64,000 bases of DNA, taken from Clarkia xantiana subsp. parviflora. Its lineage: Eukaryota; Streptophyta; Magnoliopsida; Myrtales; Onagraceae. The stretch is from positions 5,686,763-5,750,762 of the forward strand of contig JAPTYO010000007.1 in the NCBI GenBank assembly GCA_036873135.1, written 5' to 3'. Shown here piece after piece: positions 19,275-64,000 of the stretch (its first letter is position 1; each line of letters begins with the position of its first letter). Below the pieces are notes generated by a model, which did not search any database, was not told the origin of the DNA, and was given only the letters and a program-made list of their open reading frames with translations. Made by a program: the position numbers and the translations under genes.

Positions 19275-19683
19275 GAGCATCCACAGTGGTATTACGTAAA
19301 AAATACGTAAACGTGGGTCCTATATGTTTATTTAAGTAAAGCATTAAAAACTATCTACAGTGGTTTTACATAGCATTCCTTAAAGATCACACCTACACGT
19401 AAATTTATGTTTTTACATAAAGCATTCCTTAAATTTAAGTAATGCACTATGTATTACGTAACCAATTTTTTATTATAAATTAATTCATTTAATAATTAAT
19501 GTTAATATCTTATTGGTGGTTGCTGGAAAATTTAATAATAAAATTATTTAAGAAATATCTTTAAGTAATACGATTGCAGAGAAAATATTTTTTACGTGTG
19601 TCTTAAATTTACGTATTACTTAAAGTGTACATAAATGTCTGTCAACTTTTAAGAATACAGTTTCTAAAACCATTGTAATGCTC
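19275..19683. mobile_element. PIF/Harbinger-like MITE in the promoter of ECT copy A
   Basis: Inverted termini GAGCATCCACAGTGG ... CCATTGTAATGCTC, with TAA duplicated on both sides (19272-19274, 19684-19686). It belongs to the same family as 13884-14460. The corresponding place in copy B (about 35920) has no element, so an empty site exists in the same window. Confidence 0.88.
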
Positions 19684-19868
19684 TAAACCCCCAAATCTTT
19701 GGCGGCTGCCTCGTCGTGGTCTCCTCTTCTTCTACCTTCTCTAGGGTTTTCGTGTATCTCCTACTAAACCCTAATATCCTGTACGGAGCCGTTGGAATTT
19801 AGGGGTTTATTTATCTCCTCCTCCGTTTTAAACTCCGGCTGTCGAACCTCCGGTGGTCGAATTCCGAC

Positions 19869-22800
19869 ATGGCTACAGGCGCTGCTCAAGCAGATCGTAT
19901 CCTTTGAATTACCATCTAGTTTATGAATTCAATCTTGATGTGTTGTAAATCTGAGCTTCATGGTTCCGTTCTTTGTTTTGTGTCAATTTGCCTTTTAAAG
20001 GCGCGAGCTTATGTCTGTAAATTCTTTTTTTTTAATGTACTTTTCAATTTCTCTGTTGTTTATTGGAGTTTCTGACTGTCTTATTTCTTTTGGATTTGAA
20101 TCGCGTTGGTGGGTGCTTCTTCTTGTTTCTTGAACTCATGTTAAGAATTGAGTATCTGCATGGCTTAGTCACTTGCGTGTTTGATTCTATCAAGAAAGTA
20201 TGTTGGTTCCTTTACGTTATTTTCGATAGAAGCCTCCGGTTTGCTGCAAAATCTGTCGTTAGATGCTCAGCCTAAGGCCCTGGAGATGCCACAGCCTACC
20301 AAGAAGGTGATTAACTCATTTATTTTAATGATTTATCGGTTCTACTATTTGAAATATTCCTAAAGAAAATTTCTTTTAACTGCAGCCTTCAACTAAGCAA
20401 TATGCTTCTCCCGAGTCTGGTAATGCTGCAAACGGGCAGGTCTTTCCGGTTGAACGATCTATGACCCCTGGAATGGAGTTTGATCCTAACATGTTCTACA
20501 ATCCAAATCTGTATCCATCTCCTGGCTATTACTATGGAGGTTGGTTGACTGAAAACTTAGTTATTGTTTTAATTGGTATCACGTGGTACTAAATTATTAA
20601 CCTTTAAACTTTTAGGATATGATGGAACCAGAAATGATTGGGAAGATTACTCAAGGTATGCTAATGCTGAGGGGGTTGATATGGCTAGTGTAAGTTTCTT
20701 TCATATCTTTCATTTTTTTTTAACTTTTAAGTTTTATGAAACCCCTTAATTGTCATGGTGATTTCTAATGCTTACCACATTTTTCTTTCAGGGGTTATTC
20801 AGCTATGGATATTCTCCGTATGGTCCGTATTCTCCTGCGGCTACCCCTGCTCCTGGAAATGATCCGATGTATGGAACTCAACACTATCACTATCCATCTC
20901 CTTATTTCCAGCCTGTGGCTCCAACTAGTGCCCCATATTCAGGATCTCAAGGGGATGTTTCCTCGTCTAATGACCAGAAGCCTGTGCTCATGGAGACTGG
21001 CAATGCCAACTCTAACTCAGCAGCAAATGTGGGCACCAAGGGTGCCAATGGGTCTACTGCTGTAAAACCGACAAATCAGAACTCTTTTAATGGTAATGGT
21101 TCTTATTCCAGGGGTGGTATTGCTTCTGGGTACCAGGACCCAAGATATGCCTTTGATGGGGTACACTCCCCTATTCCATGGATAGATAGCCAAGTATTCT
21201 CAGATGGTCAGTCTAGGCCTGCAGCTTGTGGTGGAATGACTAATTCTCTATCAAATGCAAATAGTTTCCAATCTTCAAAAAACCAGCCTTTCCAGCCAAA
21301 CTCCCAATTCATGGTAATACATTTTTCCCACTTTATCTTTTATTAGCTTTTTGTAGGTGTCATGAATGTTATATGGGCCCATTTTATGCGTTTAACTTCA
21401 TGTTTCTAATTGGTGGTGGTTGTCATGTCATAGTTTGTATTTCAAGGTAAGAGTTATTCAAGTGTAGTGTCTAAACTCTAATAAGTGTGTCTCTTTTCAT
21501 CTTCCATAGCCAAGACCCGTACCTGGAATTGGAGCTACTAATGCCTTCATGAATCAGATGTATGCAAACAAGTTTTTTGGTCAGTACAGCACAGTCAGAT
21601 CTGGTATTGGCTATGGGCAAACAGGACGTGGTTGGTTATCCTATGACACCAAGTATAAGAACAAGGGACGTGGAAATGGTTACTATGGCTATGGCAATGA
21701 GGGTTTGGATGGTTTAAACGAGCTTAATAGGGGACCAAGGGCCAAAAGTTTCAAGAGCCCAAAACCAGTCACTCTGGTAGTGAAGGATCAGGCTTTGCCC
21801 AGTACTGATGGGACATCCGAGGATGTCAATGAAAAGAAGATTATAACACCTGACCATGAGCAATACAACATTGTTGACTTCCCTGAGGAATATGCAGATG
21901 CCAAATTCTTCATTATTAAGTCATACAGTGAAGATGATGTTCACAAGAGCATAAAGTACAATGTTTGGGCTAGCACGCCAAATGGTAACAAGAAACTTGA
22001 TGCTGCATATAGGGAATCACAGGAAAAAGCTGCTGGCTGCCCAATCTTCCTCTTTTTCTCAGTAAGAAAATGAGAGATTCAGATTATATCAAATATTTTC
22101 AATTCTACTTTAGATTCTTTAGTCTTTGTTTATGTTGGTGTTTTTTTGCTTATCGTTTATTTACCACCCTTGCCTAGGTCAATACAAGTGGACAATTTGT
22201 TGGTGTTGCGCAAATGGCTGGTCCAGTAGACTTCAATAAGAATGTCGAGCACTGGCAACAGGATAAGTGGTATGGTTGTTTCCCTGTAAAGTGGCATATC
22301 GTAAAGGATGTACCGAACAGTTCATTGAAGCACATTATCTTGGAGAACAATGAGAACAAACCCGTTACAAACAGCAGAGACACCCAAGAGGTAACTTGAT
22401 TCTGCCTCTTGAAATGATTGCTTTGACAAAGTCTTCGTCATATACCAATTTTGGCCAACTGTATATTCTGGCAAAACTGCAACAGGTAAAGTTGGAACAT
22501 GGGCTAAATATGGTGAAGATATTCAAGGAGTACAGTTCCAAGACGTGCCTTCTTGATGATTTTGAGTTTTATGAGAACCGTGAAAAAGCGATTAAAGAGA
22601 AGAAGGCCAAGCAACAGCAGCATAAGCAGGTAGGGTATTATTATCTTTGATGTCTTGTTCTGCAATCTATCTTGTGGTTAAGTTTCATTGAAAGAAGCTT
22701 TTAACTATGTTGGTTAATTAATGAAGGTTTGGGAAGGTAAGCTCTCTAGTGAGAAAAAAGACACAGTCACTGCTGGTGAAGTGAGTTCTCCAGAAATTGA

Positions 22801-22882
22801 GCAAGAAACTGCTGATGCCGAGGAAGTATCGTGTTTGAAGCCTGGAGTTGCTGTTACAAAGTCGTTGGCAAATGGCTGTTAG
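19869..22882 (+). CDS. ECT2-like: YTH-domain m6A RNA reader, ECT2-like, copy A
   Basis: Cytoplasmic protein binding N6-methyladenosine in mRNA through a C-terminal YTH domain (YTHDF class; ECT2/3/4 of Arabidopsis). Nine exons: 19869-19896, 20230-20306, 20386-20539, 20616-20689, 20792-21313, 21510-22061, 22178-22390, 22486-22629 and 22727-22882, giving 639 aa. The N-terminal ~415 residues are low-complexity and rich in Y, P, G, S and N, typical of phase-separating YTHDF proteins. The YTH domain spans about 417-555 and the three aromatic-cage tryptophans are present ([15 protein letters not shown]). Position 481 is Q where copy B and most YTHDF proteins have E (VAQMAG versus VAEMAG). The tail after the YTH domain is 11 codons shorter than in copy B. 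The first exon encodes only MATGAAQAD plus one base. Confidence 0.94.
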
Positions 22883-23325
22883 ATGGATTGAGCCATGAAT
22901 TATGGCCGTGGCTTATAGATTCTTCTTCTTTATATATATTAAGGAAAAGTTGGGATTGAGATGAGGGTGTTGAAGTTGAACAAGCATAGAGGCCATATAT
23001 ACAAGTGTTTCTTCTTCAAAGAGCTAATAAATCCAAGGAGGTGTGGAATTCAATCATCTCTGCGGCATTTTGAGTAAAGGGGAGGGAAATTGGGAGTTAG
23101 GTGTTATTTTGATTGTGCTTAATCTTCATTAGAGTAGTGTCTCTTTTAGATACCTAACAGTTTTCCAATTTCTTTAGGGAGTTTGTTTTAGCGTTTTAAG
23201 TGGGTTTTACACCACTTTTTTTTTTTTTTTTTTAATCTTTCTTGTCTGATTTTGCTTTATATGTTCCCTTTTTCCTTGTATGTTGAGAGCTAGAATGATG
23301 CTAGAAAAATGCAGCAAATGTGTAA

Positions 23326-24034
23326 AACAAATTTATAAGTATGAAATATACTACATTGACCACAAAGCTTTTTTCTTCTTCATTAATCATGATATGGATA
23401 TGTTGTCGTGTACATAACACGACACCAATGGATGTGCCGACTCTATTGTCCAAAGGTTAAAACTAAAAGTAGGTGTCTGAACTTTTAAATGTTATACTGT
23501 AGTGTTCAAGTTTTCAATTTTTTCCTAATAATTGCTGTACTTCACAAGTGACATTAATTTCTTGGCCGAGAGTATCTCGACCTTTAACTACTAGAGCGTG
23601 ATAAGTATTTTGTTTAAATGTGCTGTCTCGATGTGATTACTTTAGAGAAGTCAATTTTGACGAAACCGACTATCAAATTCGAGCTTACATACACACTCCA
23701 TTCTCGTCATCTTGTCGAGACCGTCACTTAAGAAACGGGTCCCATCCGCGCAAGTAAATCCCGCTCCGTTGTCGTTGGGAATCGCTCCACACCACTCTGC
23801 TATAAACATTTTCTTTTGGATATTCAACTTTTGGGTGAAATTTGACGATTTTGTGAAAAATAAGGAGGGATGGATTATGAGTGAGTTGATGAAAATGATT
23901 ATAGGGAGATGACAATACGCGCAGATATACTAAATTTCAACAACAATGAAACCTGTGACAGTTCATTTTAACATTTCAAACTTCAGACACCTACTTTTAA
24001 TATATGGTAAACTTTTGATAATTTTTTAGTTATT
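23326..24034. mobile_element. Candidate TIR element (about 23465-24000), family unclear
   Basis: AAAAGTAGGTGTCTGAA at 23465 and its inverse TTCAGACACCTACTTTT ending near 23998 form ~35-bp imperfect terminal repeats about 535 bp apart. I could not identify a clean target duplication. The interior encodes nothing recognisable. Confidence 0.55.
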
Positions 24035-24050
24035 AACCCTTATATTAATT

Positions 24051-26265
24051 TTTTTTTTTGGCCAAAGAAAAACTCTTTATTAATAAAGCAAAGAACAATA
24101 CCAATCCGGAGCAATATCAATCAGCATAATAGAAACAAGAGGAGATGGGGGTATTGAAACCCAATTTAAATGACACATCTCATTTCTGGATTGAATAGCA
24201 ATCCAGTTGGCGCATCGGTTCGCGTTGCGTCGGATAAATTTCCAACGAATCTCCGCTATAAGTCTTGCTCTTTGATGTATGGAATCTATGATATTGGAAC
24301 GTTTCCAATCAACTTCGGAGTCTCCCCGGATTTGACGAATTATATACTCCGCGTCAGATTCGATGACCACCTTGTTCCAACGATGGTAGACAGCCAAATC
24401 CACCGCTTGCAAGATAGCCACCGCTTCAACATTGGTTGCGTTGATATCCCGACATGAAGAGTGACGACCTGCTATGAGTCTTCCACCATTATCTCTAGCA
24501 ATAACGCATGTTCCTCCTCGTCCTGTACCCCGCATCCAAGACCCATCACAACAAATCGATATCGTATCAACCGGCGGCCGAAGCCACATTTGAGGCGCAT
24601 CATGGTTGCTATTTGGTGCGGTCCTCTCCAAACTTCGAATTCTTGTGCTCCATATATCTGCACAAAGGCGACGAATATGATCCACCACAAACATAGGTTT
24701 TGGAGCATCCCTCGTATAGACGGCCCGACACCGTTCCTTCCAAATTTCCCATGCTGTGACCTCTATTTGGAGCTTTAAGAATGCCTCAAACTCAGCCCCC
24801 CGATCCTCATTTATTCCCGCCTCCTCCAAAATATCGAGCCAACTTGGTGCACCTCATTGTTGCAAACGAACACCCAGGGACGAAGCCAGGATTGAAATTC
24901 AGAGGGGGCAAAATTTCTTATTAAGATTTTATTTAGATAATTTTTTTTAATACTAGATCAATCGTTAACTATTTAAATTAAATCCTTCATACTTTTATTT
25001 TAAACACTTCACAATTATTTTTAAGATGTTTATTCTTAATTTATTAATTTTCTTTTACTTATACTAAAATTTTAATCGGTAGTTTTTCAAATGAACTTAC
25101 CATTCTTATTAAATGGAATATATTTTTAGTAGAAAGTTAAAAAGTTTGATTGCATATTTTTATTAAATATTATTTTTGATGGGTTTTTTTACAATATATA
25201 TATATATTTAAATTATAAAATCTCATTGCATATTTTATAGATTGTACTAAACTGATTTAAGTTATAATAATTGGCAATAATTATTTTCATTTAAACATAA
25301 AACAGTTAAATGGTGATTTAGGTGGGCCGACTTTAACAATTAAAGTCCATTAGTCACTTTTCATGTATATATATATTAAAGCCTACTGATGATAGCCCAT
25401 TCACGTTTTTAGACCCAAAAAAAAAACTAATAATAATTAGCATAACACCATAACCCTAGAATCTAGATTAACACACAGCAGAAGCAGTTCTCTCTAAGTT
25501 AAGGCGGCAGACGGCAGACGGCAGAAATGGTTCTCCATCAAGTTTTTGCAATTTTTAAGTCAATCAAGGTTCTAAGTGAAAGGAGCAACAAGAAAATACA
25601 GATACCTTTCTTGATTGAAGACTAAATTTATGAATCTGATGCCTTGAATCTTATGGTTCGGTATTTCTTGTTATATAATTCAGTATTTTGTGGTAATTTG
25701 CAGCCGATTAGAGAGGTAATGTATACTCTTTTAAACTTTGAAAATGGATGAAACTTCAATACTTGTTGTAGGAAACATGTATTTCAATTTTCAACTCCTC
25801 TCATGTCTCTTTTTTTTTTCAAATTTAAGAAAAAATTCAGTTTATTTGAGGAACTGGTGGCATTTTTTTCTTCTGCATGTGTACATTTTGATGAAAGACT
25901 TTCTAATTCGGTGTAAGTTTGTACTCTGATTTTGTGCTTTCCTCGTAGCTATTGTTTGTACTCTGATTCTGGTGAAAGACTTTCTAATCACTGGACATTT
26001 TCTGAAGTCGGTGGGGCAAACTGAAATTCAACAGGGCAATTTGCAAATCCAGAGGGGGCAAAAGTGCAATTTAGTGGAAGCAAATGTGAATTTCATCATA
26101 TTCTTAAGGGTATTACTGATATTTCCAAAAAGTTCAGAGGGGGCAATTGCCCCTCCTGGTCCCTTGATAGCGTCGTCCCTGCGAACACCCATACCACCAA
26201 ACCAAACAGGTTTAGTCCACGAGCAATGCAATAGAGCATGGTCCACAATTTCCGTTCCATTACAA
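24051..26265 (-). mobile_element. 5'-truncated LINE (RNase H end) split by a hAT element
   Basis: On the minus strand the sequence reads from a zinc-binding reverse-transcriptase tail (DHALLHCSWTKPVWF, about 26190-26246) into an RNase H-like domain (ICCDGSW at about 24553, ESDAEYIIRQIR at about 24330). It ends in TTTGGCC(A)n at 24051-24062. A perfect 16-bp target duplication AACCCTTATATTAATT flanks it (24035-24050, 26266-26281). Without the inserted hAT it is about 900 bp, so only the 3' end of a LINE arrived. The RNase H part is still open for 249 codons (24080-24829), which suggests it is fairly young. Confidence 0.92.
24875..26181. mobile_element. Non-autonomous hAT element inserted in the LINE
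   Basis: Termini CAGGGACGAAGCCAGG ... GGTCCCTTGATAGCGTCGTCCCTG, with the 8-bp duplication CGAACACC on each side (24867-24874, 26182-26189). The CAGGG(A/G)CG(A/G)AGCCAG terminus is typical of plant hAT elements. Subterminal GAGGGGGCAA words recur near both ends (about 24902, 26050, 26137). At 1307 bp it has no transposase-like ORF. Confidence 0.92.
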
Positions 26266-35614: not shown

Positions 35615-38600
35615 GCTAGGGTTTTCCAGACATTTTTGCCTCCTTTGAGCAAACCACTTCAAGAGGATGGAAATAGCAAAATTAAGAGTCCTCACCTGAT
35701 GTGTATATAACTTGCGTCACGGACCAGTAAATGTCTCATAAAGATGTAAAAAAAAAACTAAGTGATCCATTCGTATAAAGCCACGTGTCATTATGAACCA
35801 ATCACATTATTCCTATGAAATCACTCTGTCACAGTCGGGTGATCAAACCTGGGGTGGAAAAAGAGTTGGCGTGGTGCTACTTGAATCACAGTCTCTCAAA
35901 CGATTGATTGAACAAAACCCTCCCTTTTTCAAAGCCCCCAAATCATTGGCGGCTGTCGCGTCGTGGTCTCCTCTTCTTCTACCTCCTCTAGGGTTTTCGT
36001 GTTTCTCCTTCTAAACCCTACTATCCTGTACGGAGCCGTTGGGATTTAGGTTTTTTTTTAAATCTCCTCCTCCGTTTGAAACTCCGGCTGTCGAACCTCC
36101 GGTCGACGAATTCCGACATGGCCACAGGCGCTGCTCAAGCAGATCGTATCCTTTGAGTTACCTTCTAGTTTATGAATTCAATCTTGATGTGTTGTAGATC
36201 TGACCTTCATGGTTCCGTTCTTTGTGATATGTTTCGGTTTGTCTTTTAAAGGCGAGAGCTTCTGTTTGTAAATTCAGTTTTTTTTTGTTTATACTTTTCA
36301 ATTTCTCTGTTGTTTATTGGAGTTTCTGGCTGTCTTATTTCTTTTGGATTTGAATGGTTCGAATCGAGGTGGTGGGTGCTTCTTCTTCTTGTTTCTTGAA
36401 CTCTTGTTAAGAATTGAGTATCTGCATGGCTTAGTCACTTGCGTGTTTGACTCTATCAAGAAAGTATGTTGGTTCCTTTACGTTATTTTCATTAGAAGCC
36501 TCCGGTTTGCTGCAAAATCTTTCGTTAGATGCTCAGCCTAAGGCCCTGGAGATGCCACAGCCTACCAAGAAGGTGATTAACTCATTTATTTTAATGATTT
36601 ATCGGATCTACAGTTTGAACTAATCCTGAAGAAAGTTTCTTTTAACTGCAGCCTTCAACTAAGCAGTATGCTTCTGCCGAGTCTGGTAATGCTGCAAACG
36701 GGCATGTCTTTCCGGTTGAACGATCTATGACCCCTGGAATGGAGTTTGATCCTAACATGTTCTACAATCCAAATCTGTATCCATCTCCTGGCTATTACTA
36801 TGGAGGTTGGTTGACTGAAAACTTAGTTATTGTTTTAATTGGTATCTCGTTGTACTGAATACTTGGCCTTTAAAATTTTAGGATATGATGGAACCGGAAA
36901 TGATTGGGAAGATTACTCAAGGTATGCTAATGCTGAGGGGGTTGATATGGCTAGTGTAAGTTTCTTTCATATCTTTCATTTTTTTAAACTATTACGTTTT
37001 ATGAAACCCTGTACCTTTTTATGAAACCCCTTAATTGTAATGGTGATTTCTAATGCTTACCACATTTTTCTTTCAGGGGTTATTCAGCTATGGATATTCT
37101 CCGTATGGTCCGTATTCTCCTGCGGCTACCCCTACTCCTGGAAATGATCAGCTGTATGGGACTCAACACTATCACTATCCATCTCCTTATTTCCAGCCCG
37201 TGGCTCCAACTAGTGCCCCATATTCGGGATCTCAAGGGGATGTTTCCTCGTCTAATGACCAGAAGCCTGTGCTTATGGAGACTGGCAATGCCAACTCTAA
37301 CTCAGCAGCAAATGTGGGCACCAAGGGTGCCAATGGGTCTACTGCTGTAAAACCGACAAATCAGAACTCTTTTAATGGTAATGGTTCTTATTCCAGGGGT
37401 GGTATTGCTTCTGGGTACCAGGACCCAAGATATGCTTTTGATGGGGTACACTCCCCTATTCCATGGATAGATAACCAAGTATTCTCGGATGGTCAGTCTA
37501 GGCCTGCAGCTTCTGGTGGAATGATTAATTCTCTATCAAATGCCAATAATTTCCAATCTTCAAAAAACCAGCCTTTCCAGCCAAATTCCCAATTCATGGT
37601 AATGCATTTTTCCCACTTTATCCTTTATTAGCTTTTTGTAGGTGCCATGACTGTTATATGACCCTATATTCAATTGGGCCCATTTTATGCATTTAACTTC
37701 ATGGTTCTAATTGGTGGTTGTTGTCATGTAATAGTTTGTATATCATTGTAAGAGTTATTCAAGTATAGTGTCTAAACTCTAATAAGTATCTCTTTTCATC
37801 TTCCATAGCCAAGACCCATATCTGGAATTGGAGCTACTAATGCTTTCATGAATCGTATGTATCCAAACAAGTTTTTTGGTCAGTACAGCACAGTCAGATC
37901 TGGTATTGGCTATGGGCAAACAGGACGTGGTTGGTTATCTTACGACACCAAGTATAAGAACAAGGGACGTGGAAATGGCTACTATGGCTATGGCAATGAG
38001 GGTTCGGATGGTTTAAACGAGCTTAATAGGGGACCAAGGGCCAAAAGTTTCAAGAGCCCAAAACCGGTCACTCTGGTAGTGAAGGATCAGGCTTTGCCCA
38101 GTACTGATGTGACATCCGAGGATGTCAATGTTAAGAAGATTATAACACCCGACCATGAGCAATACAACATTGTTGACTTCCCTGAGGAATATGCAGATGC
38201 CAAATTCTTCATTATTAAGTCATACAGTGAAGATGATGTTCACAAGAGCATAAAGTACAATGTTTGGGCTAGCACGCCAAATGGTAACAAGAAACTTGAT
38301 GCTGCATATAGGGAATCACAGGAGAAAGCTGCTGGCTGCCCAATCTTCCTCTTTTTCTCAGTAAGAAAATGAGAGATTCAGATAATATCAAATATTTTCA
38401 ATTCTAATTTAGATTCTTTAGTCTTTGTTTATGTTGGTGTTTTTTTGCTTATCGTTTATTTACCACCCTTGCCTAGGTCAATACGAGTGGACAATTTGTT
38501 GGTGTTGCGGAAATGGCTGGTCCAGTAGACTTCAATAAGAATGTCGAGCACTGGCAACAGGATAAGTGGTATGGTTGTTTCCCTGTAAAGTGGCATATCG

Positions 38601-39632
38601 TAAAGGATGTACCGAACAGTTCATTGAAGCACATTATCTTGGAGAACAATGAGAACAAACCCGTTACAAACAGCAGAGACACCCAAGAGGTAACTTGATT
38701 CTTCCTCCTGAAATGATTGCTTTGACAAAGTCTTCGTCATATACCAATTTTGGCCTAACTGTATATTATGGCAAAACTGCAACAGGTTAAGTTGGAACAT
38801 GGGCTGAAGATGGTGAAGATATTCAAGGAGTACAGTTCCAAAACATGCCTTCTTGATGATTTTGAGTTTTATGAGAACCGTGAAAAAGCAATTAAAGAGA
38901 AGAAGGCCAAGCAACAACAGCATAAACAGGTAGGGTATTATTATCTTTGATGTTTTGTTCTGCAATCTATCTTGTGATTAAGTTTCATTGAAAGAAGCTC
39001 TAACAATGTTGGTTAATTAATGAAGGTTTGGGAAGGTAAGCTCTCTAGTGAGAAAAAAGACACTTCCACTGCTGGTGAAGTGTATTCTCCTGAAATTGAG
39101 CAAGAAACTGCTGCTGCTGCTGTTGAAGCTAATGAGGAGACGAAATATTCTGAGGAAGTATCGGGTTTGAAGCCTGGTGATGCTGTTACAGAGTCTGTGG
39201 CAAATGGTTGTTAGATGGATTGAGCCATGAATTATGGCTGTTTCTTATAGATTATTCTTCTTTATTAAGGAAAAGTTTGGATAGTGATGAGGGCGAGGAA
39301 GCTGAACAAGTATTGAGGCCATATATACCAGTGTTTGTTCTTCTACAAGCTAATAAATCCAAGGAGGTGGGGAATCCAATCATCTCTGCAGCATATTGAG
39401 GGAAGGTAGGGTAATTGGGGATTTAGTTGTTATTTTGAGTGTGCTTAATTTTCATTAGTAGTCTCTTTTAGATACCTAACAATTTTCCATTTTCTTTAGG
39501 GAGTTGGGTTTAGCGTTTTAAGTGGGTTTAACACCACTTTCTTATTTTGCTCAGTCTTTCTTTTATATGATTTTGCTTTATATGTTCCCTTTTTCCTTGT
39601 TTGAGAGCTAGAAATATGCAGCAAATGTGGCA
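35615..39632 (+). repeat. Segmental duplication, copy B (ECT gene with promoter and 3' region)
   Basis: Direct partner of 18930-23325 in the same orientation, about 16.7 kb downstream. It lacks the promoter MITE and has a small in-frame expansion in the last exon. Confidence 0.92.
36118..39214 (+). CDS. ECT2-like: YTH-domain m6A RNA reader, ECT2-like, copy B
   Basis: Paralogue of the gene at 19869 with the same nine-exon structure: 36118-36145, 36496-36572, 36652-36805, 36882-36955, 37077-37598, 37809-38360, 38477-38689, 38786-38929 and 39026-39214, giving 650 aa. The first eight exons have exactly the same lengths as in copy A and differ by scattered substitutions. The YTH domain (about 417-555) has all three cage tryptophans and keeps the usual E at 481. 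The last exon holds 11 extra codons around an alanine run ([13 protein letters not shown]). Both copies look functional. Copy B has no MITE in its promoter and may represent the ancestral promoter state. Confidence 0.94.
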
Positions 39633-40204
39633 AAAAAAAAAAAAGGTTATTAAATATACTACAGTGACTACCAACGTATGTGCCAACTCTGTATTAATTA
39701 AATTAATAGAATCAATTATGGATTTTATTTGTTCAACAGTTTTACATTTACCACTGCAATTGAATTGAGCAAAGAAAGCTGCTAAAATTAGATAACGTTC
39801 TTTTTAGTTCCAATTTCAACATAAGTTCTTCGTTTAGTTTTACAACTAAAACTACTACCATAAACGGTTCAGAAATACAATTAATCATATTTGATTACTT
39901 ATGATCCAAAACCTGCATTCTTCAATCCAATTCAGTGTTATGATCGCAGACAGCAGTGTTTCCTTGGGTTGCTTTCTGGTTTCTGATAGAATCCATCACC
40001 AATAAAATCATATACACCCCCAGTAAGCCTCTATTTACATTTCAGTTCAGGCTCACCAATCACTGCCCAAGTAAAAATCTGTAACAAAGATGTTCGCAAT
40101 ATAAATGAGAAGATCTTCATCTAATGCATCCTCTAAATGTTGGTAGGATGATGCGAAAGAGTTCATTTTTAAATTTTTTAGCAAAGATAAATACAGTTGG
40201 CTGC
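39633..40204. other. Intergenic spacer between convergent ECT copy B and TBP
   Basis: About 570 bp containing the 3' flanks of two convergent genes. The AT-rich sequence holds the TBP 3' UTR on the minus strand and no other feature I can support. Confidence 0.6.
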
Positions 40205-44115: not shown

Positions 44116-44885
44116 ATGAAAGATATGAAGTTTAATCAATATTAATCGAAGAAGTATGACGTTTCAAAAGTTAATATGAAATGTCTGAAGTTTCAATTTG
44201 TTGAATTTTAGTTTTTCGTCAATTTTTAGAATTAAATTTAACAATCTAGTCTGAAATAACACTTTCGCCCATTTTAATATTTTGTTTTATTTAATATTTT
44301 ATTTAAGGAAATGTGAAATAACAAAATTACCCCTAAAATCAAATTATGTATTAAATCTCTATTTTTTATTTTATTCAATTTAATCCTCAAAATTATATTC
44401 TAAGTTTTAATTTTTACAATTAAGTCCATATTATTTTCTCCGTCACCACACAAATGCACTGGCCACCACCCGAGGCCGCCGAACACCGCCCAAGGTCGAC
44501 GACTACCACCAGTTGGGTCGGGCACCACTAAATCGTGGCCGGTCAGCCACCAATTGGGGTTGTGGCTGGCCGATCACGATTTGGTGGTGGCTAGCCTTTG
44601 TGGTCGTCATCGGCCTTGGGTTGTGGTCGGCCACGATAGAGGCATTTTCATCTTTTTATTTCAAGCATGTGAGGGTGGACATTTTTTTCTTTTCATTACA
44701 AGTATACGAGATGCACGCTTTAATAAAATGATATTTTTGAGATTTAATTTTATTTTCAGTCACATGAAAAGCTCGTGACAACTTCCATCAATTTTAACGG
44801 AAAATTTAAAATTAACGGAGATCTAAAGTTAAAACTTCAAATATTTCATATTAATTTTGAAACTTCTAAAAAAAATGAAATTAAG
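44116..44885. mobile_element. Old, diverged relative of the 49-kb Mutator-like element
   Basis: Shares in order with 49033-49970 a TTAAATTTAACA block, TTTTAATATTTTGTTTTATT, AAGGAAATGTGAAA..ACAA, a GC-rich middle rich in GGCC, a CATGTGAGGG word, CAGTCACATG and a TTTTAACGGAAAA block. The terminal repeats are eroded (AAGTTTCAATTTGTT/AAACTTCAAATATTTCATATT). It lies immediately next to the snoRNA cluster. Confidence 0.65.
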
Positions 44886-44926: not shown

Positions 44927-45021
44927 ACAGTTCCCCTCAGACAAATGCCTCGTTTTGTCATCAAGATTTTGAATGGAAAATCAGACTCGTCATCGTATCG
45001 TGATGATCACTAGGAAACAGC
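44927..45021 (-). ncRNA. U15: Box C/D snoRNA, U15-like, copy 1 (probably decaying)
   Basis: Most promoter-distal of three tandem copies (~180-bp period). Box D CTGA, box D' CTGA, box C' TGATGA and both guides match copies 2 and 3. Box C is GTGATCA instead of GTGATGA, and the terminal stem is weakened (CTGTTTCC on the 5' side against GGGGAACTG). This copy may be poorly expressed or a pseudogene. Confidence 0.7.
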
Positions 45022-45109
45022 CATTCATTTTAATCATACCAAACAAGAAAAATCAAAACTTTATTAACCACCAACAGAAAAAATTTAAGAGTAGTTGAAA
45101 GAAGAATAG

Positions 45110-45204
45110 GCAGTTCCCCTCAGACAAATGCCTCGTTTTGTCATCAGGATTTTGAATGGAAAATCAGACTCGTCATCGTATTATGATCATCACTAGGAAA
45201 CTGC
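45110..45204 (-). ncRNA. U15: Box C/D snoRNA, U15-like, copy 2
   Basis: 95-nt unit: terminal stem GCAGTTTCC...GGGGAACTGC, box C GTGATGA, box D' CTGA, box C' TGATGAC and box D CTGA. The guide next to D (ACGAGGCATTTG) and the guide next to D' (GATGACGAG) are complementary to overlapping parts of one 25S rRNA segment, CAAATGCCTCGTCATC. That pairing is the hallmark of U15 (rRNA and U15 sequences recalled, not searched). It directs 2'-O-methylation of rRNA in the nucleolus. Confidence 0.88.
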
Positions 45205-45287
45205 CATTCATTTCAATCATAACAATCAAGAAAAATCGAAACTTTATTAACCAACAGAAAAAAAAAATCGAAGAGAAAGAAGAATGT

Positions 45288-45382
45288 GCAGTTCCCCTCA
45301 GACAAATGCCTCGTTTTGTCATCAGGATTTTGAATGGAAAATCAGACTCGTCATCGTATTGTGATCATCACTAGGAAACTGC
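45288..45382 (-). ncRNA. U15: Box C/D snoRNA, U15-like, copy 3
   Basis: 95-nt unit nearest the promoter. Box C GTGATGA (45365-45371), D' CTGA (45342-45345), C' TGATGAC (45318-45324) and D CTGA (45298-45301) are closed by a 9-bp terminal stem. The D guide is the complement of CAAATGCCTCGT (45303-45314) and the D' guide of CTCGTCATC (45347-45355). The fifth base upstream of box D pairs with the third A of CAAATG, the predicted methylated base in 25S rRNA. Confidence 0.9.
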
Positions 45383-45470
45383 CATTCATTTCAATGATAC
45401 CAAACAAGAAAAATCAAAACTTCATTAACAAACATAAAAAAAAAACTATTTATCCACAGAAATATTGAGA

Positions 45471-45564
45471 GAAGGCTTCAGAGAAGATCTTGGTGTATAA
45501 CATTCATCACTGGGATCAAAGATACCATCAAGAGTAGCAAATATTTCTAACATCACTAGCCTTC
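45471..45564 (-). ncRNA. U24-like: Box C/D snoRNA, U24-like
   Basis: Terminal stem GAAGGCT/AGCCTTC (45558-45564 with 45471-45477) directly encloses box C GTGATGT (45550-45556) and box D CTGA (45478-45481). Internal box C' is a perfect GTGATGA (45504-45510) and D' is a CTTGA variant (45528-45532). The two guides are complementary to AGATCTTGGTG (45485-45495) and AGTAGCAAATATT (45533-45545). As I recall it, these lie two bases apart in plant 25S rRNA and are the U24 target region. Spacing to the D boxes differs from vertebrate U24, so the exact methylated bases may differ. Confidence 0.85.
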
Positions 45565-45658
45565 CCCCAAATCTTCATCAAAATCAATTAAAAAATAAAA
45601 ACTTATGCATCATCAATCAAGAAACCAAGATCGCAATTAACAGAAACAGAAAGAGAGC

Positions 45659-45756
45659 AAGCACGGTTAAGAGTCAGAAGTAGCTGGTTGTAATTTCATA
45701 CGAAAACGTCAATGACAATTCGTCTATTCTTTCGTCATCCATCAGTCACCATGCTT
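45659..45756 (-). ncRNA. Candidate box C/D snoRNA guiding the AGTAGCTGGTT site of 25S rRNA
   Basis: Stem AAGCATGGT/ACCGTGCTT encloses a weak box C (CTGATGG, 45739-45745) and box D CTGA (45674-45677). Directly upstream of box D lies an 11-nt complement to AGTAGCTGGTT (45679-45689), a conserved 25S rRNA sequence as I recall it. The non-canonical box C and the few unpaired bases between stem and boxes lower confidence. Its position as first in a snoRNA cluster raises it. Confidence 0.62.
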
Positions 45757-45869
45757 GAAATTTATAGCAGAAAATGGAAAAGCTACAATTGAAGTGACGG
45801 AGAAGATAGGAGTGGGGAGAGGGAAGAAAAGGAATGTGAATGAAGGAAGAAACGTTGCAGCGCTCTGCT

Positions 45870-45960
45870 GTTAAATAGGATGGCCAGAAAGAGAATCGGC
45901 GGCTGGGTTGCTGTGAAACCCTAAATCGAATCGGTGGAGGAAGGGAAGATAGAACCCCCG
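45870..45960 (-). promoter_or_regulatory. Promoter of the snoRNA cluster (telo-box and TATA)
   Basis: On the minus strand a telo-box (TTTAGGGTTT, 45916-45925) is followed about 40 bp downstream by a TATA-like TATTTAA (45871-45877). The five snoRNA units then follow in the same orientation. Independent polycistronic snoRNA genes of plants typically have telo-box/Site II plus TATA promoters (established knowledge). Confidence 0.65.
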
Positions 45961-45981
45961 AGAGTTATATGGCGTCGTTTA

Positions 45982-46610
45982 GAGCACTTCCAATGGCAAA
46001 AGACACTATGAAGGACATTTACCGCCACGTCATCGCCATGTCATTAAAGAAAGAGAATAATGGAATTTGGCCAAAGTATTCACAATGTGCAAAAGTCATT
46101 GGACACATTAGATAAGCCATTTTGGATTTATATGATTTTTATATGATATAAATAAATAAAATATATTTACTTATAATTTTTTTAATTAACTAATTATACT
46201 ATCATACTATTCAAGTAATTATCTATGAAATATTAAAAAAAAAAATACATGATTTAAATCATTAATAATATTATAAAATAGAAAATTTTATTGCATTAAA
46301 TTTTATACTAAATAATAAAGTTACGTAATTAATTACTCAAAGTAGACTTCAACGTAAAGAGGCCACTAGGTATATAATATATAACAATTTAATATTACAA
46401 ATGTTACCATCATTTTTGTAAGTTATTTTTTATTGTTATTAAAAATAAATAAATTAATTTTTTATCTTGGAAACACAAATGTCTTAGGACAACTTAGAGG
46501 AAAGAGAAAATATTTATATAAGGACAATTAGTGGTAAGATATAAAATGTCATTCACTCTCTCTTCCACATAGGCAAAATGTCCTAACATATTTGCCCATT
46601 GAAAGTGCTC
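45982..46610. mobile_element. PIF/Harbinger-like MITE next to the snoRNA promoter
   Basis: Termini GAGCACTTCCAATGGCAAA ... TTTGCCCATTGAAAGTGCTC with TTA duplicated on both sides (45979-45981, 46611-46613). AT-rich 629-bp interior, no ORF. It lies immediately upstream of the snoRNA cluster promoter. Confidence 0.85.
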
Positions 46611-46679
46611 TTAGGTGGTCTGATTATGTTGGGTTATATAGCAAAAAATAGACACCGTCACTTTTCGATTAGATTACTT

Positions 46680-47015
46680 TATTTTAAAGGTGTTATGTAT
46701 AATATTACGTACACTTTAAATAATATTTAAAAAATTAAAATATAAATATAAATAAATAATATTTATTCTCTAATAATGTTATTTAATAAATTCTAAATAT
46801 ATTTTAATATTAAATTATTTTTATAATTACCAATAAGCTATTAGTATTAACTATGAATGAAATGAATTAATTTTTTTTTAAAAAAAAATTATTTAATGAT
46901 GTGACAACATATTGTATTCCTTAAATTTAAGGAATACGTTATGTAAAAATAAATTAGTCTCACTTTTAAGAAATAATATGTAAAACGATTGTAATACATT
47001 TTATATATTTATATA
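46680..47015. mobile_element. Diverged MITE relic of the 13.9/19.3-kb family, inverted
   Basis: Read in reverse it shares with 19275-19683, in order, an ACGATT..TACATA start, GGAATACGTTATGTAAAAAT-like and TTAAATTTAAGGAAT words, an ATTAATTCATT region, CCAATAA and a TACGTACACTTTAA word. Termini are eroded. Confidence 0.6.
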
Positions 47016-47718: not shown

Positions 47719-48699
47719 TCAGTTTCCATCGGTCGGGTTCGACGACCTACCGACTACTGATCCCGACGTCGACGAACTTGACGTTGTGTTCCCGAATAAA
47801 CCACTAATAAGCCACGGTATCGAAAACCTTCTCCGATTCCAAACCCTTCCTTCTCCCTCTCCATTATTCGCGCCCCGATTCCCCACATTACCTGAACCCG
47901 CATTCACATTCCCACCCATATCGACCTTCGGCTCGTCAACAGGCAGCTGAAAGCGGCAAACCGGGCATGTGCTATGTAGCTCGAGCCACGGCAAAATGCA
48001 CTTTTCGTGGAACCTATGCTTGCAAGGCGTCTCCTTCGCATCTTTCCCGACCTCAAACTCGTCCAGGCAAACCGAGCATTGCGAAGCTTCCTTAATCTCA
48101 ACCGTCGGCAATGCCTCAATCGCCTCTTTCCGGGTCGGGTTAGTTCCGTGTCGGTTCGGATCGGTCTCCGCCAAGTGTTGCAGGACCAAATCCAAACCGC
48201 GCCCCATGAAATAATTCCCGAGAAAGTCCACGAGGCTCGTGCTGACGGCCGGTCCACGGAGAATGATGGTTCGGTTGAACGGTTCGATCGCTAATCCGCG
48301 GTTCGTGTCTCTTTCGTCTGAGTCGATTCCCCCGTTAGTAAGTCCGGCTCGAACACCCTCCAGAAGCTGCAAAATTGTGGCAGCCCGGTCCTGACCCGAC
48401 TCTTGCCCGTTGCCACGGCCGATATCGTCACCATTAACGCGGTTGAGTTCATCGGAGTCAAATGTTGACTGCCTCGTCCTTCTCGTATTGTTCATCACAC
48501 CGAGCAAAATCGGGGCCCACACCGAGAGGACTCGGTCGGTCCCGGCATCCATCTCGGCACGGGTTTCGTGATCGTTAGCCATTTCTTCGACAAACCCGTT
48601 GTGGCAATAGGGACATTCTAGGTTAACTTCGGTTGCTAGATACACCATCCTCGAGCACACGTGGCACCAATGTCGCGTCGGCGCAACTACATTATCCAT
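47719..48699 (-). CDS. RING-H2 E3 ubiquitin ligase with N-terminal zinc ribbon
   Basis: Probable E3 ligase that brings E2-ubiquitin to substrates. Single coding exon, 326 aa. An N-terminal C-x2-C...C-x2-C zinc ribbon (C12, C15, C29, C32; HWCHVCSRMVY, ECPYCHNGF) is followed by a disordered stretch and a C3H2C3 RING-H2 finger at 208-248. Its ligands are C208, C211, C226, H228, H231, C234, C245 and C248 (CSVCLDEF, PCKHRFHEKCILPWL, STCPVCR). The tail is rich in G, N and S. This layout matches the plant RING1/RDUF/SIRP group; members often act in stress responses, but the substrate cannot be inferred here. It is GC-richer than its surroundings, as a real coding exon should be. A leader intron probably lies at about 48720-48830. 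Confidence 0.94.
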   Translation of the reverse strand: MDNVVAPTRHWCHVCSRMVYLATEVNLECPYCHNGFVEEMANDHETRAEMDAGTDRVLSVWAPILLGVMNNTRRTRQSTFDSDELNRVNGDDIGRGNGQESGQDRAATILQLLEGVRAGLTNGGIDSDERDTNRGLAIEPFNRTIILRGPAVSTSLVDFLGNYFMGRGLDLVLQHLAETDPNRHGTNPTRKEAIEALPTVEIKEASQCSVCLDEFEVGKDAKETPCKHRFHEKCILPWLELHSTCPVCRFQLPVDEPKVDMGGNVNAGSGNVGNRGANNGEGEGRVWNRRRFSIPWLISGLFGNTTSSSSTSGSVVGRSSNPTDGN

Positions 48700-49032
48700 T
48701 TCTGTTTTGAATTAAATTCCGATTCTCTTCTTCACCGGAAACAGTTGTCTGAAATGAACAAAAAAAAGGTGATCAATCAAAGAACAGAAAAGTTGATGAA
48801 AATGAAAAGATTTTAATCAAACCTGAATTCCAGTGGTGAAGAAGAAGCTGCAAGGAAGAGATGCGGGATTTTGTTGAAAACGGATCTGCGTGATAAATAA
48901 AGCTTTTAGAAGATTTGCAAATTTGGGTGCTAAATTTAAGGAATCAATGGGTGTTGCTTGTTGATGCTTTTGGCTCCATCGCCAATATCCAATGGTTCTA
49001 TCTATAAACGACAACCTAACTAATTTAGATAA
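48700..49032. other. Leader and promoter of the RING gene
   Basis: Minus-strand leader with a likely intron (acceptor-like TTTTTTTGTTCATTTCAG just above 48745) and then the promoter. The MULE insertion at 49033 lies about 330 bp upstream of the start codon. Confidence 0.4.
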
Positions 49033-51935: not shown

Positions 51936-53684
51936 TTAGATGGTGTAAGGTGGCGGCTTGGGCGCCCCGACAACGGCGCCACACAACGGTGTATTATCTG
52001 GCATGTTGTACTCGTCCCTCAGCGACCGCTCCGGCGAAGTCACGCTGACGTACATCTGCTGACCCAAATACCTCCTCTCCGCCATCTCCGACCTCAAGTT
52101 CCACATCCCGGCGTTATCAAATGTCAGCATCACGGCGGCCCACGATTTCGGGAACACCTGGACGGTGTGTCTGCTCACCGCATCAAGGAGGTTATACCCC
52201 TTCCTCTTCTCCGGCGACCACCTCCCCGGCTCCACTGCCACCGCGAAGAATGAGTACCCGTCGAGATTCCACGATTGGATGCTCTTCTCGTGGTTCTCGA
52301 AAATGATCTCGATGAAGTCACGGAATGTGGCGTTGACAACGTTGGGTTGCACATTGGCGGTCTTCTCCACCTCCTCGGTGGGCCCGTCGGAGATGGTGTT
52401 GTATTTGAAGACCTTGTCGGAGATCTGGAAGTACTCGGCGAGCTTCAATGGAGTCTCGGGGTCGGTGTGGGAGACACCGTTAATGGCGTACCGTAGCTTT
52501 CCGTCAACTTTATTGGCGGAGTTCACAATCTTGATGGTTCGGGTGATGTTGATCTGGCCGTAATGGTACGAGCCCTGCGGGTTGGGCCTGGCGGCACTCG
52601 CGGTCAAGTTCCACCTAAATGTCCTAAACTGGTTCAGGGACCAGGCCCAGCCCTCGGGTTGCTTAGGCAGTTCGGGCTCAACGGGCCCATTTCCGTTCTC
52701 GTACCGGATAATACCCGTGGCGGTCAAAACTTCTTTAGTGAACCGGGTCGAGGCAACCGCATAGTACTCCTTGGGCTCCTGGTCAGCTGTGACCAGGACC
52801 CCGAAGCATTGACCCACATGGACATCGAGCGACTCGTAGGTGTTCTGCACAGTGTGGGACCCTTCCATCTCGACGAGCTTCATGGTGTGGCCCTGGATTC
52901 TGAAGTTCAACGAGTTCTTCAACCCGACATTGCAAATCCTATACTTATAGGTCTTTCCGGGCTTCATTGTAAACAAGTTGTTGCTATTGCCGGTCTTTCC
53001 GTTAATCAAGACGCCTTCGGGTCGGGCCATGGATCGACCACTGTCCAATATGTTCTTAAGCTCCTTATGGGTCTTTGTGTACCAATCCCCGATAAGAACC
53101 GTGTAGTCATCCTCAGGGTCAGCGTAAGGGACCGGGATCAGTAGCCTACTATTAACCCTCAGCCCACCGAACCCACCCGCAGCCCGCTGGAGCCCTAATG
53201 TAGGGTAGTAGAAGTAGCTTCCGATCTGATCCTTAACCTGTACCGAAAAGTTATAAGATACTTCCAGAACATTCCTAATAAGTCAAACTATTCCATTATA
53301 ATATTTTTTTATAATATCGTATTTGTAAGAAATTTTCAATATGCTGACCTGAAACCGATATGTGAAATTAGTTCCCGGGAGGATGGGGCAGTTAGTCCCG
53401 GGAAGACCGTCCATCCAAGAGTTCTTGCGTTGCTGGATCCCGCTCCAGGTGAAGAGCAACGACTCGTCGAGGTTGTTAAAGACATTGATGACAACGTTGT
53501 TGTTGGTGGTGGAGTTGATGTTGGGGCCAGGAAACTCGCCATTGATGAGGATGCCCTGTTGGGGGACACCTAAAGGGGAGATGGTGCCGTAGGTGACGTT
53601 CCATGTGAAGAACAAATACGGGTCCTCGGCATGGACAGCGACCAAGAGGCAGACGAAGGTCAGCAGTTTAAGGTTTGATGTCAT
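51936..53684 (-). CDS. SKS: SKU5-similar (SKS) multicopper-oxidase-like secreted protein
   Basis: Secreted or apoplastic cupredoxin-fold protein of the plant SKU5/pollen-specific NTP303-Bp10 group, related to ascorbate oxidase. Two exons on the minus strand: 53349-53684 and 51936-53237, giving 545 aa. A signal peptide ends near AVHAED (about 19-20). Three cupredoxin domains are recognisable (about 22-145, 155-300 and 370-510). The copper ligands are lost: FTWSGIQQ (78-85) replaces the HWHG motif and GMWNLRSE replaces the HCHIE motif, as in SKS proteins, so oxidase activity is unlikely. Family roles are in directional cell growth and pollen tubes (established knowledge). Start chosen at 53684 because it gives the signal peptide. 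Confidence 0.95.
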
Positions 53685-54717: not shown

Positions 54718-54737
54718 GTCCCTTCGGGGACATCCGA

Positions 54738-54769
<32 letters not shown>

Positions 54770-54820
54770 GGCCCCTGCGCAAGGATGACACGCATAAATC
54801 GAGAAATGGTCCAAATTTTT
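54718..54820 (+). ncRNA. U6: U6 spliceosomal snRNA gene
   Basis: Full-length U6, starting GTCCCTTCGGGGACATCCGA, with the invariant ACAGAGA box and AGC triad (ACAGAGAAGATTAGC) and the 3' end GAAATGGTCCAAATTTTTT. The T run at 54816-54821 is the Pol III terminator. No deviation from the canonical plant sequence was noticed. U6 forms the catalytic core of the spliceosome. With its USE and TATA intact this is a likely active locus, not one of the common U6 pseudogenes. Confidence 0.97.
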
Positions 54821-62688: not shown

Positions 62689-63459
62689 TTATTTATTAGG
62701 GTAGACGGTGAAGAAAGTTTGAGTAGAGGTTAAGGCGAATAGGAAGATCGTAGCAACCAGTGAGATGCTGGCCCACGGACTACGAAAGTAGGTGTGGTTC
62801 AAGTTCGCAAAGTGAGCTCGCCACGCGTGGCGCGGCTTATTGCAGTAGTCATTTACTGCGCGGTGTACCACCATAAGATACCCATACTTATCCGTATTCA
62901 CGTGACTACTCACGTGACGCGACAGGCAGTTGAACATCAGCGCCACCTCCTGGTTGCTCCCCATTGCATTCTGAATAATCCCCTTGGACCGTAGCAGCGC
63001 CACGTCACGCTCACTATCTACGATGCTCTCCATGAAGTAAATGAACGATATGACGTCGTTTCCAGCGCCCACGTGGAACCGCTCGAAGGAAGTGAGGTTG
63101 AGGAACGTTGACTCGGTCGTGTCGTCAACCACGAGAATAGGGAGTCTCAGTACGGAGTTGGAAAAGGAGATGTCTCTTAGGTTGGTGCTGTCGCTCGGCT
63201 TTAACTTGAGACCAGCTTCGTGTAGTTCCGTTGCTGTCGGTAGCCGAATGATGAGTGCACCACCATCCTCGATGTCGTCGTCGTTGACATAGCTGGGCTG
63301 CTGTCGGGTCGGTGGTTCGGGTTCGTGGCTCAAACCCTTACGGTATACGTCCAACACGTGGAGGCATTTGTCTGGAACCCTAGAATCCCTCTGGTCGAAG
63401 AAGTTTAGTATGAGCTTGTTTATCACTTGATCATTATTATTCTTTTCCTGCGGCTGCAT
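62689..63459 (-). CDS. DUF247 (UPF0481) protein, C-terminal part only
   Basis: Plant-specific family of membrane-anchored proteins of mostly unknown function; some members act in grass self-incompatibility. The open frame gives 256 aa, while full members have about 400-550. Present are the ATELHEAGLKLKPS motif (about 76-89), LPILVVDDTTESTFLNLTSFE, YFMESIVDSERDVALLRSKG and a C-terminal segment ending in a transmembrane helix (ISLVATIFLFALTSTQTFFT). The N-terminal half (plug of conserved W/P/Y motifs) is absent. An in-frame stop lies just upstream and a possible acceptor (GAGCAG) precedes codon 1, so either an upstream exon lies beyond the window or the gene is truncated. The downstream 540 bp of the window show no matching exon. 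Confidence 0.8.
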   Translation of the reverse strand: MQPQEKNNNDQVINKLILNFFDQRDSRVPDKCLHVLDVYRKGLSHEPEPPTRQQPSYVNDDDIEDGGALIIRLPTATELHEAGLKLKPSDSTNLRDISFSNSVLRLPILVVDDTTESTFLNLTSFERFHVGAGNDVISFIYFMESIVDSERDVALLRSKGIIQNAMGSNQEVALMFNCLSRHVSSHVNTDKYGYLMVVHRAVNDYCNKPRHAWRAHFANLNHTYFRSPWASISLVATIFLFALTSTQTFFTVYPNK

Positions 63460-64000
63460 CCAATAAGTAATGTAACCCTGCTCGACTTATAATAATATAT
63501 ATAAATATTGACTTCACTTACAAGCAAGTAAAGTGTTGTTCATAAAATATAAAATATAGAGAGTTATCGTGAATATATTAAAGTATGAATAAGTAAGACA
63601 CTCTTTCAAAAACATTTCAATCACAAGTTCGAAAATTGAACTTATGGAACAGTTAGTTAAGAGATACATCTTATTTTTTACATGATAACAAAGAACACAT
63701 TCAAATCGTGGTGATGTTATTTAAAATTTAAAACCCTTCACTTTACTCACAATCATGTAATTAACATCACAAAATAAATAAAACATCAGTTCATAAACCG
63801 ATCGAGGTTAAAGTATGAATTTGAAAGAAGAAGCGCTGAAAGTCACTCATAAGTATAAATTTATAACATGATAATTAAAGCTAGAGAAATGTGAATGGTA
63901 TATATATTATCTAAGTTGAATATAATAGATACAAGATGTAAAACATAATCAAATAATATATCAAAATATATTTATTCATATATAATAAAATAAAATATAT
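63460..64000. other. Upstream flank of the DUF247 fragment
   Basis: AT-rich DNA without a recognisable exon of the missing DUF247 N-terminal half or any other feature. Confidence 0.5.

Follow-up and report, generated by a model that had tools for sequence, protein, structure and literature searches.

The window analysed here, a 64,000-nucleotide (64-kb) stretch of DNA from Clarkia xantiana subsp. parviflora, carries five box C/D snoRNA genes on its minus strand between 45744 and 44932, which in order of transcription are snoR12, U24 and three copies of SNOR75 (Table 1). Together they form a real and well-built box C/D snoRNA cluster. When the whole 64-kb window is searched with Rfam models, four of the five units pass the gathering threshold and snoR12 lies just below it. 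The first-pass annotation had proposed a minus-strand C/D cluster of at least four and probably five units, one of them U24-like, together with an Rfam search as a check; five units are indeed found, and the SNORD24 match as well as the three SNOR75 matches exceed their gathering scores. No stop-to-stop ORF of at least 110 aa overlaps the cluster, and a plasmid similarity search returned 15 records with listed E-values of about 3. That snoR12 and U24 might enclose a sixth unit was considered and rejected, because CTGA is absent between 45674 and 45481.

Table 1. Positions of the snoRNA units, their sequence elements and the neighbouring genes within the window.
Feature	Position	Strand	Basis or details
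Telo box (AAACCCTAA read on + strand)	45916..45924	-	Pattern search; ~170 nt upstream of first snoRNA
TATTTAA, more plausible TATA	45871..45877	-	Pattern search
snoR12 box C/D snoRNA	45669..45744	-	Rfam RF00204, 34.8 bits (gathering score 39)
snoR12 boxes	C box AUGACGA 45738-45732; D box 45677-45674	-	
snoR12 external stem arms	45757-45748 and 45667-45658	-	10 bp, -16.2 kcal/mol
U24 (SNORD24) box C/D snoRNA	45474..45561	-	Rfam RF00069, 52.6 bits, E 2.5e-6
U24 boxes	C GUGAUGU from 45556; D' UUGA from 45531; C' 45510-45504; D 45481-45478	-	
SNOR75/U15-type copy a	45293..45376	-	Rfam RF02539, 65.6 bits, E 2e-11
SNOR75 copy a boxes	C 45371-45365; D 45301-45298	-	
SNOR75/U15-type copy b	45115..45198	-	Rfam RF02539, 65.5 bits, E 2.2e-11
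SNOR75 copy b boxes	C 45193-45187; D 45123-45120	-	
SNOR75/U15-type copy c	44932..45015	-	Rfam RF02539, 60.1 bits, E 5.9e-10
SNOR75 copy c boxes	C changed to GTGATCA, 45010-45004; D 44940-44937	-	
RING E3 ligase-like gene, upstream of cluster	47719-48708	-	Domain match
Ascorbate-oxidase-like gene	51939-53282	-	

The D box reads CUGA in every unit, and the C box is full (RUGAUGA) or typical of its family in three of the five, namely SNOR75 copies a and b and U24, where GUGAUGU stands in place of the Rfam consensus AUGAUGU. In snoR12 (AUGACGA) and SNOR75 copy c (GUGAUCA) the C box is one base off, so that the earlier statement that C/D boxes occur in every unit is accurate for the D box and has to be relaxed for two C boxes. 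Under the kink-turn model, the base changed in copy c is the G whose partner is the C of the D box; this copy is probably weak or dead.

The snoR12 unit, with an Rfam E-value of 2.9e-4 in a search of 2.1 kb, owes its name to more than its score: it immediately precedes U24, and its D guide matches LSU rRNA, both of which support the call. What had previously been listed as a further candidate guide is thus a real unit, to which a family, left unnamed at the time, can now be given, with a score below gathering.

The three SNOR75 copies are contained in a direct repeat of 171 nt, which recurs at spacings of 183 and 178 nt and whose outer two copies share 90% and 94% identity with the middle copy. 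Since the repeat includes the spacers, tandem duplication of a unit some 180 bp long is the most likely origin of the copies. All three match the Rfam SNOR75 model over its full length above the gathering score, and they differ from the consensus by gaps totalling 5 nt and by two inserted bases, in addition to the changed C box of copy c. Among the copies, 4 of 74 ungapped columns vary in the core from C to D, whereas the spacers vary at 24 of 73 (Fisher p 1.7e-5); 4 of 37 columns vary in the stem arms, and both guides are invariant in the alignment. The earlier description of these genes as three U15-like copies is correct by target, as the guides fit both 25S sites of Arabidopsis U15, and does not carry over to the Rfam U15 model: SNORD15 (RF00067) was rejected as a name for them, its single listed match, to copy c and after removal of lower-scoring matches from the same clan, reaching 21.9 bits where the gathering score is 75. 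The yeast-type snR75 model was rejected as well (25.7 and 25.5 bits, below 40).

Closing stems had been claimed for each unit, and flanking stems of 10-15 pairs do enclose all five when the 20 nt preceding C are paired with the 20 nt following D. U24 has 13 contiguous pairs (-22.7 kcal/mol), SNOR75 copies a and b have 15 bp with one bulge (-22.2 kcal/mol each), and copy c has 14 bp with interruptions (-17.6 kcal/mol). Among 2000 random minus-strand places of the same spacing, 11, 2, 2, 4 and 4 are as good as the stems of snoR12, U24 and copies a, b and c, respectively; in the same order, 8, 0, 0, 0 and 0 of 1000 shuffles are as good. When arms are swapped between families, they reach only -3.7 to -11.3 kcal/mol; swapped arms of the SNOR75 copies, by contrast, pair no worse than the native ones. 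A general repeat finder reports no inverted repeats of at least 14 nt in the region; G-U pairs and bulges occur in the stems. A C/D snoRNA usually has a terminal stem of 2-5 bp (PMC7671301); the flanking stems described here are long by comparison, and such length may aid processing.

The targets of the guides were sought in conserved LSU rRNA stretches of other eukaryotes, present in stray public contigs, rather than in the 25S rRNA of the species itself. LSU is called by Rfam in four of these contigs (L001, L004, L005 and L129), and in L003 a conserved LSU stretch lies at the contig end outside any Rfam call. Nine of the ten guides pair with conserved LSU over 9-13 bp, the exception being the D' guide of snoR12; the first-pass annotation had all guides directed against 25S rRNA, which thus applies to nine, by pairing with the LSU of other eukaryotes, and not to the tenth. 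The published Arabidopsis sites are A945 and A2127 for snoR12, C1447, A1459 and G1460 for U24, and A2282 and G2289 for U15 (PMC8053127).

The D guide of snoR12 forms 11 bp with LSU in L005, with an A at D+5. For its D' guide no LSU target was found, and 20 of 60 shuffles scored as well on L005; the Rfam consensus guide forms 10 bp with LSU in L129, where the longest run of the D' guide present here is at most 7. The apparent loss of this guide is a sign of drift. In U24, the D' guide (D' box UUGA) forms 13 bp with LSU in L001 and places D+5 on an A twelve bases after C1447, and the D guide forms 11 bp in the same contig, but in a shifted register. The LSU of L005 is divergent: there the U24 D' guide has no run at the target and the D guide only 9 bp. 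In all three SNOR75 copies the D guide pairs over 11-12 bp with an A at D+5 and the D' guide over 9 bp with a G at D+5, seven bases after the D site, which by the D+5 rule, under which the fifth base of the guide marks the methylated site, corresponds to A2282 and G2289. These distances equal the published ones for Arabidopsis, seven bases between A2282 and G2289 and twelve between C1447 and A1459 (PMC8053127).

Shuffled guides were scored on L005 alone and the observed guides on L005, L001 and L004. On this basis the best match of each of the five D guides is reached by none of 60 shuffles, and the same holds for U24 D', for which the shuffle run had the box shifted by one base. The short matches of the SNOR75 D' guides are equalled by 3, 2 and 3 of 60 shuffles in copies a, b and c, the best score of copy b in this comparison being a chance match elsewhere in L005. 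A loop common to all three SNOR75 copies, UCCAUUCA, is moreover complementary to UGAAUGGA (8 nt) downstream of the target in L003, and its complement is absent from L005. Pairing beside the target, of which this loop would be capable, has been described for Arabidopsis U15 (PMC8053127).

That all of this reflects chance or low-complexity resemblance, and that no snoRNA genes are present, has virtually no probability left. The snoR12 score below the Rfam threshold would fit such a view, which is already refuted for the other four units by E-values of 2e-11 to 2.5e-6 in the whole window; in addition, at most 11 of 2000 random places equal the stems, and the guides fall at the correct target spacing.

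Upstream of the cluster, a promoter composed of a telo box and a TATA element had been suggested. The telo box is present. Counting both strands, the window contains 6 instances of its 9-mer, while the seven 8-mer telo permutations begin at 51 positions (28 on the plus and 23 on the minus strand); because of this frequency the motif alone is weak evidence. The TATAAA nearest to the cluster (45766-45761) was rejected as a promoter element: its end is 22 nt ahead of the snoR12 C box, and transcription starting some 30 nt further on would begin within snoR12 itself. Between the telo box and the first snoRNA lies TATTTAA, the more plausible candidate. A pattern search of 45746-46950 finds neither site II (TGGGCY) nor TEF1 motifs. 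The suggested promoter stands as a telo box followed by a TATA-like element, though not with the nearest TATAAA and not with site II or TEF1. It resembles the TeloSII promoters found in plants at ribosome-biogenesis genes and snoRNA clusters in its telo box and in the TATA-like element between this box and the first gene, and differs from them in that site II and TEF1 are missing from the roughly 1.2 kb upstream (PMC4660826; PMC3022908). As TeloSII promoters are defined by a telo box plus site II or TEF1, the locus falls outside that class, in contrast to 34 of 40 non-intronic snoRNA loci of Arabidopsis, which are reported to combine a telo box with one of the two motifs (PMC3022908). Runs of up to 10 T occur in the spacers, and polymerase III should therefore stop there.

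Instead of having a promoter of their own, the snoRNAs could reside in an intron or UTR of a longer host transcript, for example one reading through from the RING gene, which lies upstream on the same strand; intronic snoRNA clusters are known in rice and UTR clusters in maize. We consider this improbable, since a telo box and a TATA-like element occur shortly before the first unit and a search for stop-to-stop ORFs of at least 110 aa, rather than for shorter exons, finds none on either strand between 44779 and 47718. In Arabidopsis, besides, snoRNAs are mostly encoded at non-intronic loci (PMC3022908). The homologues listed for the RING and the ascorbate-oxidase-like gene come from many rosids and other eudicots, the best named match of the RING gene having 47% identity. 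In Bauhinia variegata and Corymbia citriodora the listed homologues of the two genes bear neighbouring locus numbers, which suggests a conserved gene order beside the snoRNA cluster.

The combination of units had been presented as one without match among known plant clusters, which is too strong, because snoR12-U24 is itself a known and conserved plant cluster. It corresponds to cluster 19 of rice and to 'U12.2-U24.2' of Arabidopsis (PMC5122169), and in tomato it is found at two loci, including the SlsnoR12-SlU24a cluster (PMC7762058). As in these plants, snoR12 and U24 are adjacent here, in this order and on the same strand, with the reservation that snoR12 scores below gathering; the gap between them measures 107 nt by Rfam ends, compared with 105 nt in tomato (PMC7762058). 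What does hold of the claim concerns the U15-type tail: in the literature searched, within which older surveys and supplements did not fall, we find no description of U15 copies behind snoR12-U24, and the same cluster does not appear in passages of papers on cotton, maize and Ostreococcus. Known plant U15 clusters, such as U15a-U15b-snoR7b-snoR18b of rice and U15a-U15b-snoR7.1 of Arabidopsis, likewise hold neighbouring U15 copies (PMC5122169), directed at the same two 25S sites (PMC8053127). They differ in having two copies rather than three and snoR7 or snoR18 rather than snoR12 and U24 as partners (PMC5122169). Half of the snoRNA families of rice have reportedly expanded by tandem duplication (PMC6172812), and the three-copy tail looks like an addition by this common route. 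With its first two genes already known in plants, the cluster is mostly ordinary; its value lies in being one more plant snoRNA locus whose anatomy is described in detail, and one in which tandem copies of an unrelated guide follow snoR12-U24.

The one testable oddity of the locus is the register of U24. Alignment to the Rfam model reveals three extra bases between its D guide and D box, so that D+5 misses C1447 and lands on a G located three bases ahead of it. The guide, as read from the alignment, is out of register, a sign of drift. One might speculate that the U15-type array joined an old snoR12-U24 gene in this lineage and that U24 now methylates G1444 in place of C1447, a scenario to which we attach little credence. 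G1444 (Arabidopsis numbering) is not among the sites given in the inspected 25S stretch of a published table (PMC8053127). If this shifted reading were true, it would represent a natural change of methylation site through a slip between guide and box. In any event, the insertion offers a natural test of the D+5 rule with three possible outcomes: C1447 is left unmarked, the G three bases upstream is marked, or pairing that begins at position 4 still marks C1447. Printed U24-like strings were also sought in the literature, and no plant snoRNA study is recognisable by title among the matches listed.

The shifted U24 guide and the changed C box of copy c raise the point that the locus may be decaying. 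It could accordingly be a partly degenerate duplicate of snoR12-U24, weakly or not at all transcribed, with the working snoRNAs supplied from another locus, and the lost D' guide of snoR12 as well as the lack of site II and TEF1 in 45746-46950 agree with this. So do the two snoR12-U24 loci of tomato (PMC7762058) and the two U24 variants of Arabidopsis, of which U24.2, accompanied by snoR12.2, is the more abundant, and of which a U24.1 mutant shows no effect (PMC8053127). The guides of the three SNOR75 copies are nevertheless identical while their spacers differ, nine of ten guides still pair, the flanking stems are kept in all five units, and the telo box is present. We hold such a duplicate to be unlikely; it agrees with the explanation that we prefer on what the units are and differs from it in activity, and the confidences placed in the two overlap.

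The explanation preferred here, which we regard as highly probable, is that the locus is a non-coding eudicot gene which is transcribed independently, encodes its C/D snoRNAs as a polycistron, and belongs to the snoR12-U24 kind, with an extension of three tandem U15/SNOR75 copies. We infer that RNA polymerase II would initiate a single precursor near 45845, downstream of the telo box and the TATA-like element, that this precursor would be cut in the U-rich spacers, and that trimming would then leave five snoRNP cores, which the flanking stems and the C/D kink-turns mark out. The snoRNAs would direct 2'-O-methylation of 25S rRNA, in Arabidopsis numbers, at A945 (snoR12), A1459 and G1460 (U24), and A2282 and G2289 (SNOR75), and the tandem SNOR75 copies would raise the dose of the U15-type guide.

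The window contains several further features. A U6 spliceosomal RNA gene lies at 54718-54820 on the plus strand (113.8 bits, Rfam), with the TATA-like TTTATAT about 30 nt and what we take to be a degenerate USE, CTCCCACACCG, about 65 nt upstream; the exact core USE (TCCCACATCG) is absent from the window. A direct duplication of 3.8 kb with 91.5% identity occupies 19682-23366 and 35929-39674 (plus strand), and each copy includes an ORF with a match to the beginning of a YTH domain (positions 1-51 of 135). Domain matches are also found for DUF247 (62692-63486, minus strand) and for a reverse-transcriptase-like/RNase H domain (24083-24853, minus strand). Downstream of the cluster, at 44519-44593 (plus strand), lies a G+C-rich inverted repeat with a weak match to mir-9209 (25.7 bits against 90), perhaps a small transposon. 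Among public contigs, the conserved LSU stretch AAATGCCTCGTCATC directly follows unrelated sequence in L003, L006 and L008, from a bin named endosymbiont of Escarpia laminata. That unrelated sequence ends in AACCCTAGCC in L003 and L006 and in AACCATAGCC in L008, and the junction may represent rDNA interrupted by an insertion.
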